Shown: positions 1,144 to 49,209 of the stretch, piece after piece
Position numbering within the stretch: the first letter of the stretch is position 1
Layout: every line of letters begins with the position of its first letter
Origin: Pycnococcus provasolii
Taxonomy: Eukaryota; Chlorophyta; Pseudoscourfieldiophyceae; Pseudoscourfieldiales; Pycnococcaceae
NCBI GenBank assembly: GCA_938743325.2
Contig: OW568867.1
Coordinates: forward strand, 186,001-250,000
Length of the DNA stretch: 64,000 nt
Reading direction: 5' to 3'
Notes under the pieces: model-generated
What the model was told of the DNA's origin: nothing
Databases searched by the model: none
The model's input: only the letters and a program-made list of their open reading frames with translations
Position numbers and translations under genes: made by a program

Positions 1144-1226
1144 ACCCTAACCATCTAACCCTAACCCTAACATCCTAACCCTAACCCTAATACCCTAACA
1201 CCCTAACCCTAACACCCTAACCCTAA
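1144..1226 (+). repeat. Interstitial telomere-type array, degenerate CCCTAA repeats
   Basis: About ten CCCTAA or near-CCCTAA units lie in a row, some with an extra CA or TA between them. This is the C-rich strand of a TTAGGG telomere repeat. The array stops exactly where the recombinase element begins (CCCTAA followed by TCTTCAG), so it looks like the target into which that element inserted. It is not a chromosome end, because a gene lies on its outer side. Confidence 0.9.
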
Positions 1227-1403
1227 TCTTCAGTTCTACTTGTTTAATTGGGGTTTTTGATTGGGGGGAGTCGCTCGCGCTGCTGGTTCTGGGCGGCCGC
1301 CAGGAGGGTCACGGCCCCTCTCGAGACCCTCGAGTGGCCTCTCCCTTAGGGCTGCGCGCGCGTATCCACTCTTGCTGTTGGTTGCTTGCTTCGCAAACAA
1401 CCT
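1225..1403 (+). repeat. 179-bp direct repeat A1 of the recombinase element
   Basis: Identical base for base, as read by eye, to 3551-3729 (offset 2326). It starts AATCTTCAG and ends in an imperfect hairpin at 1380-1402 (GGTTG paired with CAACC, TTGC with GCAA around a TTC loop), a possible recombinase-binding core. It also contains short palindromes (GGCGGCCGCC, CTCGAG twice). The short open frame inside it is repeated with it and is not taken as a gene. Confidence 0.92.
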
Positions 1404-1567
1404 AACAGCCGCACTACACACGAGTAGTGGGAGGTCGAACACACGTCGGACGCGTCTTCGAGGGACGTAGTTTGTACACCGAAACGGTCTAAGTATCTAC
1501 GCTTAGATCTAGGCATCAGCAATCTTCGATTGGAAGTTTACTGTGCAGATCCTTAATCGATTGATTA
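1404..1567 (+). promoter_or_regulatory. Leader between repeat A1 and the first element ORF
   Basis: A 164-bp unique segment between the left repeat and the first ORF, with no counterpart after A2. It must hold the promoter or leader for the element genes unless transcription starts inside A1. Confidence 0.35.
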
Positions 1568-2308
1568 ATGGCTGACGCGCCGAACGAACTCGAGGTTCTG
1601 GAAGCTCGTCGCGAAATATTGCAGCTGGAGATTAGTCAGATTACGCTTGCACAGGAGCGCCGCGCAGCTGCAGAAGCTGAGCAGAAAGGCAAGAAGGCTG
1701 TCGACGAAGGAGGCGAGCCCACGTTAGATTACGTGGTGCCTGCCATCTACCCGGACGCTCGCCACGCGGAGTCGCTACCTACGGCTGGGATTCTGCGTCG
1801 CGGCAAGCCAACCCTGCTTTCTTTGCCGTCGAACCCTGTCCTTCAGCACCTAGAGGCTGAATCGGTTAAACAGGGACACGCGTCGTCCCACAACGCGTGG
1901 ATTTTCCGATCGATTGTGAGTGTCAGCGCATACCTGGAACTCGGAGTGTTGAGTCTGCAACAAGAGACCGACGACCGAGTGGAGGATTTAGCGACTTACG
2001 TCGAAGGAGAGCTGGACGTCGAGCGAGGAGACGACGGGAAACCGTTAGATCCAGACGGAGACGCCCTGGTTCACTTCAACGAGCTGAACAAGAAGATCGC
2101 GGAGATCGACTCCGTTCTGGAGCGCACGCGCAACACGCTCACAGGCGTCCTGGAGCTCGCCGCTGAGCTCGAGGACTTCTTCGCGCGGATCCCGGCTCAC
2201 ACCGGGCTGTTCATCCCGGGCCGACGACGGACGGCACACGGGGCAGGAGCGCCTCGCTGGGACGTCGTGGTATATCACATACCACGGCGACCGCCCCGGC
2301 ATTCGTGA
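1568..2308 (+). CDS. Element ORF1, gag-like or accessory protein of 246 residues
   Basis: It begins at an ATG and is the first ORF of the mobile element. The N-terminus (about residues 6-50) is a charged amphipathic helix likely to form a coiled coil. A middle helical region (about 110-170) is followed by another coiled-coil-like segment (about 165-205) and an Arg-rich C-terminus. I recognise no zinc knuckle, protease or RT motif. Position and architecture resemble the gag-like first ORF of DIRS-type elements, but homology is not shown. Its TGA at 2306-2308 overlaps the frame of the recombinase ORF, which is open from 2167. Confidence 0.6.
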   Translation: MADAPNELEVLEARREILQLEISQITLAQERRAAAEAEQKGKKAVDEGGEPTLDYVVPAIYPDARHAESLPTAGILRRGKPTLLSLPSNPVLQHLEAESVKQGHASSHNAWIFRSIVSVSAYLELGVLSLQQETDDRVEDLATYVEGELDVERGDDGKPLDPDGDALVHFNELNKKIAEIDSVLERTRNTLTGVLELAAELEDFFARIPAHTGLFIPGRRRTAHGAGAPRWDVVVYHIPRRPPRHS

Positions 2309-3522
2309 TTCCGCGCAGGCGCGTAGCGCCGCGCGTCCAGCGGCAGTACAAGGTGCAGCAGGGGGCGATCGCACCGTGGGCTGGCGCGATTCGAAAACGC
2401 ATGGAGCGCATTGCGCCGGGCGACCCTGACGGCTTAACCGATTGGATTGGCCAGTCCTTGTCAGCTGGATCGTACCGTACGTACGGAGGAACATGGCGTA
2501 TGTTCCAGAAATACTGCGATGAAGCTGGCGTCTGCTCGCTGCCGGCTACGTCGTACACGGTCGCATGCTACCTCAAGTGGCTGGGCGAGCGTGGCACGGT
2601 GCAGAAGAAATCACTGAAACCGTATCTCTCGGTGATTAACACCGTGCACAAAGACTTGGGTTACCGTCAGCGTCCCGCGATTGGCGCTCTCGTAAAATCC
2701 ATGAAGCAGGCCTACGGGCGCAAGGTAATTCGCATCAGGCCGGCACCGCGCATCCTGGTGATGCCCGCACGCATCATCCTGGACATGTGGCGCCGCGTGG
2801 AGAAGCTCACAGCTCTACCTGATCTCGAGTACATTACCAAGCTCCCCGAGATTCGGGCACTCCTCGCGTGCATTGTCTGCTACATTACCGGGTCGCGCCC
2901 GAGTTCCATCGCGTTACTGCCGCTGACGGGTGTCGCGTTCGCACTGGGCTCGGAGCTTGGCATCCAGCGCTCTTACGTCAAGACTGCTCCGGATGCTTGC
3001 GACTTCGACGTTCCCGGCCGCAGAACGGTCAGCTGGCCAGTGACTGCCACGTGGCAGACGCTGGGCCGAATGCTCATGCGCTACGACCGGATGCGCCGGC
3101 GGGTGTGCTCGCGGGCGACGTACTTCTTCAACCTTGGGGAGAAGGCGCGCGGCGACGCGTTTGCGCGCTGGCTGCCGGTAGCGCTGCGAGCTGTGGGAGC
3201 TGCAGCCCCGCCCAACGGACACTACGCGCCCAAGAGCTTTCGCTCTGGGTTCGCGTCCGCGGTGACCGCGATGAACGTCTCACCCGATAGACGAAACTAC
3301 ATCGCGGGCTGGGCTGCAAACTCGCATGCGGTCGGCACTCACTACGTCGACAACAGTGTCGTCGTTGACGACGCCGCCCGCTTCCTTTTTGGCCATCTCA
3401 TCGGCTTGCCGCCGCCTCCTGTAGAGGTGCCTGTCGCGCCTGTCGCGCCTTGGAGCTCGCCGCTGGCCAATTTGGCGTCACGATTGGTGACACTCGTCTC
3501 TCCTCTTCGTGGAGATACGTGA
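2305..3522 (+). CDS. Element ORF2, tyrosine recombinase with a Lys in place of the first conserved His
   Basis: Residues about 55-125 look like the helical core-binding (SAM-like) domain of tyrosine recombinases, and the C-terminal half is the catalytic domain. The fingerprint is R198 (ITGSRPSS), K310-S-F-R313, W336 (AGWAANS) and Y347 (THYVDN), numbered from the GTG at 2305. The K-S-F-R box matches the H-S-F-R box of DIRS-type recombinases except for His to Lys. The frame is open from 2167, overlaps ORF1 by 142 nt and lies in the -1 frame; the first ATG is at 2401. Expression may therefore use a GTG, a frameshift or the internal ATG, which gives 373 residues and keeps both domains. The C-terminal Pro/Val-rich tail is not conserved. 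Confidence 0.85.
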   Translation: MIPRRRVAPRVQRQYKVQQGAIAPWAGAIRKRMERIAPGDPDGLTDWIGQSLSAGSYRTYGGTWRMFQKYCDEAGVCSLPATSYTVACYLKWLGERGTVQKKSLKPYLSVINTVHKDLGYRQRPAIGALVKSMKQAYGRKVIRIRPAPRILVMPARIILDMWRRVEKLTALPDLEYITKLPEIRALLACIVCYITGSRPSSIALLPLTGVAFALGSELGIQRSYVKTAPDACDFDVPGRRTVSWPVTATWQTLGRMLMRYDRMRRRVCSRATYFFNLGEKARGDAFARWLPVALRAVGAAAPPNGHYAPKSFRSGFASAVTAMNVSPDRRNYIAGWAANSHAVGTHYVDNSVVVDDAARFLFGHLIGLPPPPVEVPVAPVAPWSSPLANLASRLVTLVSPLRGDT

Positions 3523-3528
3523 CTATGA

Positions 3529-3552
3529 TGGCAATACTGGCCCCCCCTAAAA
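3529..3552 (+). repeat. 24-bp direct repeat B1
   Basis: Starts TGGCAATACTGG and ends CCCCCCCTAAAA. Identical to 3822-3845. It lies 6 bp after the recombinase stop codon and abuts repeat A2. Confidence 0.85.
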
Positions 3553-3729
3553 TCTTCAGTTCTACTTGTTTAATTGGGGTTTTTGATTGGGGGGAGTCGC
3601 TCGCGCTGCTGGTTCTGGGCGGCCGCCAGGAGGGTCACGGCCCCTCTCGAGACCCTCGAGTGGCCTCTCCCTTAGGGCTGCGCGCGCGTATCCACTCTTG
3701 CTGTTGGTTGCTTGCTTCGCAAACAACCT
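3551..3729 (+). repeat. 179-bp direct repeat A2
   Basis: Second copy of the A repeat, identical to 1225-1403. The B1/A2 junction (CCCCCCCTAAAA followed by TCTTCAG) has the form expected of two element ends joined by site-specific recombination. Confidence 0.92.
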
Positions 3730-3821
3730 CCCACCCTCCCTCCCTGTTGACTATAGTTGGTTACTGGAGCAGGAGACCTACTTTTGGTTTAATTTCGGTT
3801 TGTGTAAAAGATGACCTTCAT

Positions 3822-3845
3822 TGGCAATACTGGCCCCCCCTAAAA
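3822..3845 (+). repeat. 24-bp direct repeat B2 at the right end of the element
   Basis: Identical to B1. The sequence immediately after it reads CCCTAACGGG, that is, telomere-like sequence resumes on the right flank. The 92 bp between A2 and B2 (3730-3821) are unique. Confidence 0.82.
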
Positions 3846-4070
3846 CCCTAACGGGACTTGGTTTTGGATTTGTTTCCCTTCCCTTCCCTCTCAGCCTCTC
3901 GTGTCCTGCTGATTTTTTTGATTTCAAAGTCCTGGTTGGTTGGTTTGAACTTTGAAAGTTTTTTGCATGCCATATGGGATGGCGGCGCCCTACTCACATG
4001 TGAGTCTTTTGTGAGATTGTTGCAGTAGCATCAAAGAAGTGCACTGTGAAGAAGATAGCTACCTTAAGAT

Positions 4071-5594
4071 ATGTATTCAAGCATGGAGCTGCTCACACAC
4101 TTAAAAGCTGCCTTGCCGTTCGTATCCAACCTCCCCACATCGGTTCTCTCGGGTCTCGCATACAGCGCGCGCGTCATTGGCGTGAAACCATGTGTAATTG
4201 CGTGGACATCTCGAGACAAATCTGACGTCGTCATGCTCGCGGCTGGACGCGCGCGCATCGCAAGACCAAAACATACACGCTCGTCGTCGTCGTCGATGGA
4301 AGCAGGCGAACACGTCAAACAAAAAGACGTTGACGTGCTCGCGCAAATACGAACGGGCGCCGTCGTCAACTGGGAAAACCAAGAGCTCGGCGATGACGCC
4401 GTCTTGATCGCAGGTGCAGGAGAAGACGAAGAAGAAGGAGAAGACGAAGACGTTGACGACGGAGGGATGTCGCCAGGAGAAGCGTGCGTTCTGCTCATCT
4501 TGCCTCGTGCACTCTTGCGATCGAAACTGTCGAGCGATACGGCCGCACAACAGACGATGGACGACGCCGCGCGCGTCGTCGAACAAGAGGTGGCACGTGG
4601 ACGAAGAAAGGTAAACGACCTTAATGTCATGCATGCTATGCAGGTGGATGCAGTCGGTAGACTCGACGTCGCGCTCACCGACGCCACGGCAAGCGCCGCC
4701 GCGACTGTGCAGATCATGCGAGAAAGACAAGAGAGCGCGCCGAGCTTTCCGATGCTAGATAGCGTACCTGATGGCGAGGAAGACTATTTCAATCAAACGC
4801 CAGCTGGTTTCGACGAAGTTTCCGCGTTTCTCGCCGCGCAAAAGCAGCAAGCAGCCGAGCAGCCGACTGAGGAGGACGTCAGTCGTCGCGCATCTCGTGC
4901 ATCGGAGGATTTGACGAGCTACCTTCATGCGCAGCAGGAGGAGAACGTCGCCGACGTTGAGGGTGTGAGGGACGGCGAGGAAGACTATTTCAATCAAACG
5001 CCAGCTGGTTTCGACGAAGTTTCCGCGTTTCTCGCCGCGCAAAAGCAGCGAGCAGCCGAGCAGCCGACTGAGGAGGACGTCAGCCGTCGCGCATCGGAGG
5101 ATTTGACGGGCTATCTTCATGCGCAGCAGGAGGAGAACGTCTCCTACATTGAGAAGGAGGAGAGCACCCCATCGCCGGACGAGCGCGAGAAGCAGTCGGC
5201 GCACGCCCACGCTCGGTTTGGGCAGCCCTCTCTGCCTTCGATTTCGCGCGCGATGGCTGAGGTCGAGCAGCAGTTGCTTCGCGCACGCGTGAGTGCGCCC
5301 GTCAGACGTCACCAGAATTTTGCTACGCCGGCAATGGCTACGCCGGCGATGGCAGCGGCTACGCCGGTAATGGCAGCGGCTACGCCGACGGTCATGCCTC
5401 AGCCGCAACTGCAAGGTGACAGCCACCTCGACCTCGTTCAGCAGCTCGCTGCGCGTCTCGCGGAGGCCGAGGCTAAGCTCGCCAAGGCTGTTTCTGTTGC
5501 CGCGGCGTGGAAAGCAAAGTGCGCGGAGGAGAGGCGCAAGTCCGCGCGCCTGGAGGCTGCACTGCACGCGTTAACGTCCACGGGAGGTTTGTAG
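4071..5594 (+). CDS. Cyclic-nucleotide-binding-like protein with duplicated acidic repeats
   Basis: A 507-residue protein starting at ATG 4071. Residues about 5-60 (HLKAALPFVSNLPTSVLSGL onwards) and a segment near 130-150 resemble the first strands and the last strand/helix of a cyclic-nucleotide-binding domain, but acidic insertions interrupt it and no phosphate-binding cassette is visible, so ligand binding is doubtful. Residues about 234-300 are followed by a near-identical second copy (nt 4770 and 4971, spacing 201 nt = 67 residues) with the motif GEEDYFNQTPAGFDEVSAFL. A short Ala-Thr-Pro repeat (near 5325-5395) and a C-terminal coiled coil (about 455-500) follow. The function is unknown; the repeats suggest a scaffold or adaptor. 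Confidence 0.65.
   Translation: MYSSMELLTHLKAALPFVSNLPTSVLSGLAYSARVIGVKPCVIAWTSRDKSDVVMLAAGRARIARPKHTRSSSSSMEAGEHVKQKDVDVLAQIRTGAVVNWENQELGDDAVLIAGAGEDEEEGEDEDVDDGGMSPGEACVLLILPRALLRSKLSSDTAAQQTMDDAARVVEQEVARGRRKVNDLNVMHAMQVDAVGRLDVALTDATASAAATVQIMRERQESAPSFPMLDSVPDGEEDYFNQTPAGFDEVSAFLAAQKQQAAEQPTEEDVSRRASRASEDLTSYLHAQQEENVADVEGVRDGEEDYFNQTPAGFDEVSAFLAAQKQRAAEQPTEEDVSRRASEDLTGYLHAQQEENVSYIEKEESTPSPDEREKQSAHAHARFGQPSLPSISRAMAEVEQQLLRARVSAPVRRHQNFATPAMATPAMAAATPVMAAATPTVMPQPQLQGDSHLDLVQQLAARLAEAEAKLAKAVSVAAAWKAKCAEERRKSARLEAALHALTSTGGL
4770..5141 (+). repeat. Two tandem 201-nt coding repeats
   Basis: Copies begin at 4770 and 4971. Long stretches are identical at the nucleotide level, including third codon positions, so the duplication is recent or maintained by gene conversion. 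The second copy lacks a few codons in the Arg/Ser-rich part. Confidence 0.85.
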
Positions 5595-48386: not shown

Positions 48387-49209
48387 AAGGTTAGTTAAAT
48401 TGCAGCACAAGTCTGGACACCACTGAGGCACTCCCTAAGTACTAAGAAGTAAGAACTGAGCAGCTTCACTTGTGACTTGATCCGAAAGAAAGACCCGTGT
48501 CACGAACGGGAAACTTCAACCAGAGTTCCAACTCCCCAGTTCCCCCCCCTGAAAAAAGATAGAAAGAAAAAGGGGGGGGGGGGAACCGGGGAGAGGGAAG
48601 GGGAACGGCTGAAGGGCTGAAGGGGGGGGAGGGGGGAGGGGGAGTTTTTTGCAAAGTTGGATGTTTTTGCCCAAATCCTTCGCAAAGTTGGATGTTTTTC
48701 TAACCCTAACCCTAACCCTAACCCTAAGTCCCTACAACCTGGGTTTAGGTCGGGGCTGGGTGGTCCATTGAGTTGGATTTGGTCGGTATTTCAGGTCGAG
48801 AGGCATTTGGTTTGGTCGGTATCCCAGGTGGAGAGTCATTGGCTGTTATAAACCTCACCAACTAGCTTGGGACGGGTGCCCTAACCTTTGGGCAGTCACA
48901 CGGCTTTGGGCAGTCACTCGACTTTGTCCCGACCTAAACCCAGGTTGTAGGGACTTAGGGTTAGGGTTAGGGTTAGGGTTAGAAAAACATCCAACTTTGC
49001 AAAGGATTTGGGCAAAAACATCCAACTTTGCAAAAAACTCGGGGGGAGGGGGATCCCTGTTCTCGAATTCCCCCCCCCCTCCCCCCGCGGGGCAGTCCCC
49101 TCGTCGTTGGATTTTTCCCTCCCTCGCCCTCGCCCTTCCCGTTCCCCTTTTATTGGATTTTCAAACTTCAGAAGGCCTGTTCTTTTTCTTTCCTGGCTTA
49201 GTATCAATC
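48387..49209. other. Intergenic region built around a telomere-armed foldback
   Basis: 823 bp. Poly-G tracts at 48571-48582 and 48621-48641, a foldback at 48642-49040, then C-rich tracts near 49068-49090. No gene is seen outside the short frame reading into the next gene. Confidence 0.6.
48642..49040. repeat. Foldback element: 113-bp inverted repeats with telomere-type arrays
   Basis: Left arm 48642-48754 and right arm 48928-49040 are reverse complements with one visible mismatch (CCTTCG against CCTTTG), around a 173-bp spacer. Each arm contains GCAAAGTTGGATGTTTTT twice and about four CCCTAA units (48700-48727; TTAGGG 48955-48982), then a unique GTCCCTACAACCTGGG sequence. The arms point inward like two chromosome ends facing each other. 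G-rich runs flank both sides and no protein is encoded. It could be a MITE-like insertion or a fused pair of telomere ends. Confidence 0.92.

Follow-up and report, generated by a model that had tools for sequence, protein, structure and literature searches.

The stretch of the Pycnococcus provasolii genome analyzed here (the window: 64,000 nucleotides (nt), positions 186001-250000 of the 1,003,973-base-pair (bp) contig C7) contains near its left margin a mobile element that combines a predicted tyrosine recombinase (YR) with split direct repeats. The assembly comprises 32.33 Mb in 46 contigs, and the element lies about 187 kb inside C7, which makes its position internal rather than at a chromosome end. 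Judged by its relatives, it is very probably a non-autonomous copy, with an internal deletion, of a PAT/Toc3-like YR retrotransposon of the DIRS order in this pycnococcacean green alga. All its oriented features lie on the forward strand. On the left it is preceded by a degenerate interstitial CCCTAA array that served as the target (1144-1226 of the window). The left end repeat, A1, spans 179 nt (1225-1403), its first two bases, AA, being common to element and target; it recurs identically as an internal copy, A2 (3551-3729), the repeat comparison giving 97% identity when extended to 191 nt. Between the repeats are an open reading frame (ORF) of 245 amino acids (aa; 1568-2308) and the recombinase gene (2239-3522, within an open frame of 2167-3522 whose first ATG is at 2401). 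A 24-nt sequence, TGGCAATACTGGCCCCCCCTAAAA, is found in two identical copies, namely B1 (3529-3552), an internal copy of the right end that abuts A2, and B2 (3822-3845), the right end itself, terminating in CCCCCCCTAAAA. A2 and B2 are separated by a unique 3' segment (3730-3821) that is conserved in the family. To the right of B2 is a single CCCTAA (3846-3851) followed by unrelated sequence, with no duplication beyond the hexamer. These features bear out the split repeats and the insertion at a CCCTAA/CCCTAA site described in the initial annotation; of the telomere-like repeats that it placed on both flanks, the left array stands, while the right one is reduced to one hexamer.

The recombinase is barely recognised by single-sequence searches of PDB or by Pfam, and Cre is matched by profiles only. 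A profile of six sequences, none of them bacterial, aligned it with Cre over the catalytic region (E = 9e-4); an earlier profile had contained a bacterial integrase, and the one lacking it constitutes the fair test. In this alignment R220, K248, R335, W358 and Y369 (codons at 2896, 2980, 3241, 3310 and 3343 of the window) fall in the columns of the catalytic residues of Cre. The initial identification of a tyrosine recombinase is upheld. A search of viral_contigs with this protein gave no match.

The ends of the element define a dispersed family. With up to 3 mismatches allowed, the genome contains 92 matches of the left-end pattern and 94 of the right-end pattern, as against 0 for reversed control patterns in the same search, so that chance occurrence of the ends is excluded. 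The contiguous B1/A2 junction, with a right end directly followed by a left end, is seen at 36 places, and in 34 of these the A2-to-B2 spacing is 257-281 nt. This bears on an alternative raised in the initial annotation, namely that the locus comprises two elements in tandem with common ends, a YR-bearing copy followed by a deleted one. The window locus by itself has just such an anatomy; however, the presence of the junction at 36 different places, with so narrow a spacing, implies that every element carries one of its own. In a second YR family of this genome, whose recombinase is about 35% identical, both of the copies read are built on the same A1-B1-A2-B2 plan (repeats A of 155 nt and B of 29 nt), and a tandem arrangement is accordingly extremely improbable. 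The split-repeat plan of the family is A1-ORFs-B1-A2-B2. Its ends are direct repeats: the inverted-repeat lists hold no pair joining both ends, and their only inverted exception is a 24-nt palindromic stretch inside A. A DIRS1-like assignment was rejected on the ground that the ends are direct and not inverted repeats. The family also includes two short elements of 296 and 309 nt (L132 and L133), consisting solely of A, the 3' segment and B, and 16 places with one end only (9 left, 7 right). The two copies of the second YR family lie at C2:709500-714600 (L126, L123, L125) and C29:511200-514900 (L127); the former has a reverse transcriptase (RT), the latter lacks the RT part, and the ends of neither are flanked by CCCTAA.

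A full-length relative, L051 (C4:115324-120100; 4,777 bp), clarifies what the window copy has lost. It encodes ORF1 (273 aa), a pol frame of 675 aa with an RT region, and a YR 97% identical to that of the window. Its RVT_1 match of 61 bits is above the cut-off of 29.6 and places an RT between the repeats, and the YR of the family runs in the same direction as pol. Two RNase H-like matches (20.9 bits, E 4e-4, cut-off 24.8; and 18.4 bits) and a weak match to the Dam methyltransferase (14 bits, cut-off 28.1) accompany it. In the wider set of aligned RT proteins, a match to RT_RNaseH at E<=0.1 was seen in 13 of 19 and one to Dam in 11 of 19 (best 9.9e-9). ORF1 contains no cysteine, which makes a zinc finger impossible. 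The RT domain (PF00078) is also present in two further family copies (C5:909982 and C3:862548), while the genome search for it, like those for gag and YR, yields lower bounds, with only the best candidates scored. Two more RT matches close to matches of the end patterns (C9:840949 and C10:290347) may represent additional RT-bearing copies or a relative.

Aligned with L051, the window copy consists of two pieces, 1-945 and 3122-4777 of the former, about 2.18 kb being missing (RT, the RNase H-like region and most of pol). The joint is at 2181-2183 of the window, with 3 nt common to both sides, and the genome search for PF00078 gave no match inside the copy. The 245-aa frame joins the first ~205 aa of ORF1, which is gag-like, in frame to the C-terminal 40 aa of pol. 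The gag-like ORF of the initial annotation does exist, but it is not an intact gag. The other alternative of the annotation was a relative devoid of RT that enters CCCTAA arrays by means of its recombinase; such an element would be a Crypton-like transposon moving as DNA by its YR alone. A predicted tyrosine recombinase is indeed shared with Cryptons, and three copies (that of the window, L130 and L131) retain a partial ORF1 and the whole YR match with no RT domain. Against this, L051 has both RT and YR between the same ends, the RT domain is kept in the copies on C5 and C3, and the breakpoints differ among all the RT-less deletion copies read, so that there is no RT-less lineage of common structure. 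Moreover, the family has long split repeats, which are not known as a feature of Cryptons. A Crypton-like nature is therefore very improbable, and the element belongs to a new family of a known kind, of which it is a defective representative. The annotation had also envisaged a genome-wide tabulation of repeats and flanks, and the possibility that the repeats are ordinary long terminal repeats enclosing an RT: copies with flanks other than CCCTAA and an RT-bearing full-length relative were found, while the repeats proved to be split and not of the ordinary terminal kind.

Twenty of the 36 junction-bearing copies were read through, and they comprise 1 complete copy, 13 two-piece deletions and 6 more complex structures, several with extra internal sequence. 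No two of the 13 two-piece deletions have a left or a right breakpoint in common; all retain both ends intact, and 0-5 nt (mean 2.0) are shared by the two sides of the joint. In 18 of these 20 copies A1 does not differ from A2 over 167 nt, a span that stays within the 169-nt C4-type repeat; L043 shows one difference, and L046 is not comparable, its A1 being cut off after 89 nt. The reverse-transcription model cited in the TATE study implies near-identity of A1 with A2 and of B1 with B2 at the time of insertion (PMC6681497). Given the identity of A1 and A2, we infer that the insertions are young, and that the deletions arose before or during integration. Extra sequence of about 0.9-3.3 kb lies between intact outer ends in L032, L046, L043 and L038. 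Stretches on C29 and C36 match the insert of L032 (C22:487525-493372) at 100% identity over 1.8-1.9 kb, and that of L046 (C3:436842-439206) corresponds to a repeat present at many places; both inserts are thus captured or nested DNA.

By analogy with the kind of model published for PAT/Ngaro elements, transposition would begin with an RNA of the element lacking its outermost bases. The internal B1/A2 block, identical in sequence to the predicted circle junction, could then provide the joined ends in reverse transcription, and a DNA circle with a B/A junction would form, in which a B ending in CCCCCCCTAAAA meets an A starting TCTTCAG. A YR-mediated crossover between the AA of the circle junction and an AA in the target would insert the element with no duplication. 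Mobilisation of the RT-less copies probably depended on RT-bearing ones acting in trans, and template jumps in reverse transcription are the probable source of the deletions. A different history would have full-length insertions lose their inner parts one by one through deletion by the host, with no trans-mobilisation of deleted templates. The short shared sequences at the 13 joints resemble those of end-joining repair, and all 13 breakpoint pairs are private to their copies; both points favor such a history. Nevertheless, 33 junction copies have kept both ends despite deletions on the kilobase scale, as against 16 places with a single end, and the A1/A2 identity indicates young insertions. 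Host deletion is in our judgment unlikely, but deserves to be taken seriously.

The flanks of the family reveal a marked target preference. Left flanks, from which an internal left-end match (C20:174212) was dropped, terminate in AA in 54 of 55 cases and in CCCTAA in 28 of 55. Right flanks begin with CCC in 38 of 48; 2 internal and 8 mismatched or shifted B matches were dropped from this profile, and C25:407671, with one mismatch, was kept among the 48. Left and right flanks could be joined for 44 insertions (33 junction copies and 11 matched up manually; excluded were all partnerless ends and two copies with 2-3 mismatches at the right end, C32:116245 and C1:1290956), of which 42 read AA^YC and 34 AA^CCC. 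Among the latter, CCCTAA^CCC accounts for 22 of 34, compared with 13 of the 97 AACCC sites elsewhere in the window (p = 7e-12). The preference is also one-sided: CCCTAA units are commoner to the left of the insertion in 24 pairs and to the right in 5, with 15 ties (p = 0.0005), and the left flank carries CCCTAA in 39 of 55 cases and the opposite orientation, TTAGGG, in 1. Exact terminal duplications of >=4 nt were seen in 11 of the 44 pairs, all 6 or 12 nt long and composed of CCCTAA or CCCGAA units; a target-site duplication is absent in the family, two near-duplications excepted. The right end reads CCCCCCCTAAAA, so that the hexamer is similar to one arm of the predicted circle junction. We propose that CCCTAA is preferred because the right end itself, of the form CCC...TAAAA, resembles it.

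The family is missing from the regions next to contig ends: 0 of 66 end positions lie less than 75 kb from a contig end, against an expectation of 12-14 (P ~1e-7 to 2e-6, assuming even and independent placement; the 66 are not all separate elements, two being in one element on C20). The 75-kb threshold was picked after the data had been seen, and thresholds of 50, 60 and 70 kb point the same way. As a control, 5 of 24 other RT matches on contigs of known length fall within 75 kb of an end (Fisher p = 0.001); these 24 are what remains of 37 after exclusion of 10 on contigs of unknown length and of 3 family members, and include the above-mentioned matches at C9:840949 and C10:290347. The motif (CCCTAA)3 has 5,217 genome matches, chromosome ends included, and telomere-like arrays are very common inside contigs; near the left end of C1 it is not visibly rarer, judged by eye among the matches listed. 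An element dedicated to telomeres, which serves or exploits chromosome ends in the manner of TATE, would account for the 28 of 55 left flanks ending in CCCTAA and has a precedent in TATE itself (PMC6681497). However, the empty zone at the contig ends, where other RT matches do occur, renders this highly improbable. The exclusive telomere targeting of the initial annotation is likewise not sustained, given the fraction of CCCTAA flanks, the non-telomeric insertion site of L051 and the end distribution: CCCTAA is a preferred internal target, and this is not chromosome-end targeting. A possible synthesis, which we offer tentatively, is that the right end of this PAT-like family mimics the telomere hexamer, that the family in consequence homes to interstitial CCCTAA^CCC sites, almost without exception in a single orientation, and that it is excluded or purged from the outermost ~75 kb of chromosomes; its target would be convergent on that of TATE and its chromosomal distribution the opposite.

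Several points weigh against the interpretation of the window element as a deleted PAT/Toc3-like copy, or against parts of the associated model. The position of the catalytic His in the recombinase is occupied by Lys (Lys332, codon at 3232), and the methyltransferase and RNase H matches in the family element are under the Pfam cut-offs. The search for PF00078 gave no match in a copy of the window's own 179-nt-repeat type; the three copies that bear RT have the 169-nt repeat, a type with ~90% identity in the 5' part. Near-duplicated flanks of ~15 nt are seen by eye at C24:494669 and C3:929639, and the left-side bias of CCCTAA is not covered by the resemblance of the right end. The circle, the RNA and the trans-mobilisation are steps deduced by analogy, and the internal deletions may postdate insertion.

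Among described systems, the family is closest in its features to the PAT elements, which have split direct repeats and a methyltransferase (MT), and to their algal Toc3 type, with no zinc finger and a directly oriented YR (PMC4157794, PMC3266345). As in Toc3-type elements, the plan is A1-B1-A2-B2, the gag-like ORF, pol and YR have the same direction, and the internal repeats are near the 3' end (PMC4157794); the cysteine-free ORF1 is a further likeness. Unlike them, the family prefers CCCTAA^CCC and its MT match is weak, the likeness being one of described features. Kangaroo of Volvox carteri is another PAT-type green-algal YR retrotransposon, but its YR is inverted and its internal repeats lie between MT and YR (PMC4157794); a protein of the volvocine Pleodorina is found among the RT relatives at 36%. 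The named protein matches above 80% identity belong to Pycnococcus provasolii and Pseudoscourfieldia marina. The Ngaro and VIPER-like elements lack an MT domain; the present family has the weak Dam match (14 bits) given above. TATE, a VIPER-like element of kinetoplastids, is likewise a YR retrotransposon with a fixed position within telomeric hexamers; in Leishmania braziliensis it occupies one relative position in them and has split repeats in at least one copy (PMC6681497). Telomere-hexamer insertion by a YR retrotransposon is therefore already known. TATE is described as telomere-associated and as forming tandem clusters (PMC6681497), whereas the Pycnococcus family is internal and dispersed with many non-telomeric sites, and hexamer insertion, though at a fixed position where it occurs, is not the rule in it (28 of 55 left flanks). 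In a literature search that is incomplete for preprints and subscription papers, the matches listed included no description of such elements in Pycnococcus or Pseudoscourfieldia, and no telomere-repeat-targeted DIRS or PAT element besides TATE. The avoidance of ends, the one-sided CCCTAA bias and the private deletions are the parts that remain unusual.

The family thus provides a second YR lineage with telomere-hexamer DNA as a target, and indicates that a preference for the hexamer need not equal chromosome-end targeting. Apparently active in recent times, it is represented by a single copy read as complete and by many deleted copies, in an algal genome that is small and of chromosome scale, and its dozens of junctions make both PAT-type reverse transcription and the target choice of a recombinase readable. 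It also serves as a caution that a lone deleted copy can pass for a new type of element.

Scanning the window for Rfam families and tRNAs yielded no match. Just downstream of the element, at 4770-5095, a 125-nt direct repeat (98%) is situated within an open frame of 508 aa. Elsewhere in the window, at 48700-48982, inverted CTAACC and TTAGGG arrays surround short repeats of 18 and 33 bp, and the 18-bp unit, CTTTGGGCAGTCACACGA, resembles the flank of an element end at C2:692168.

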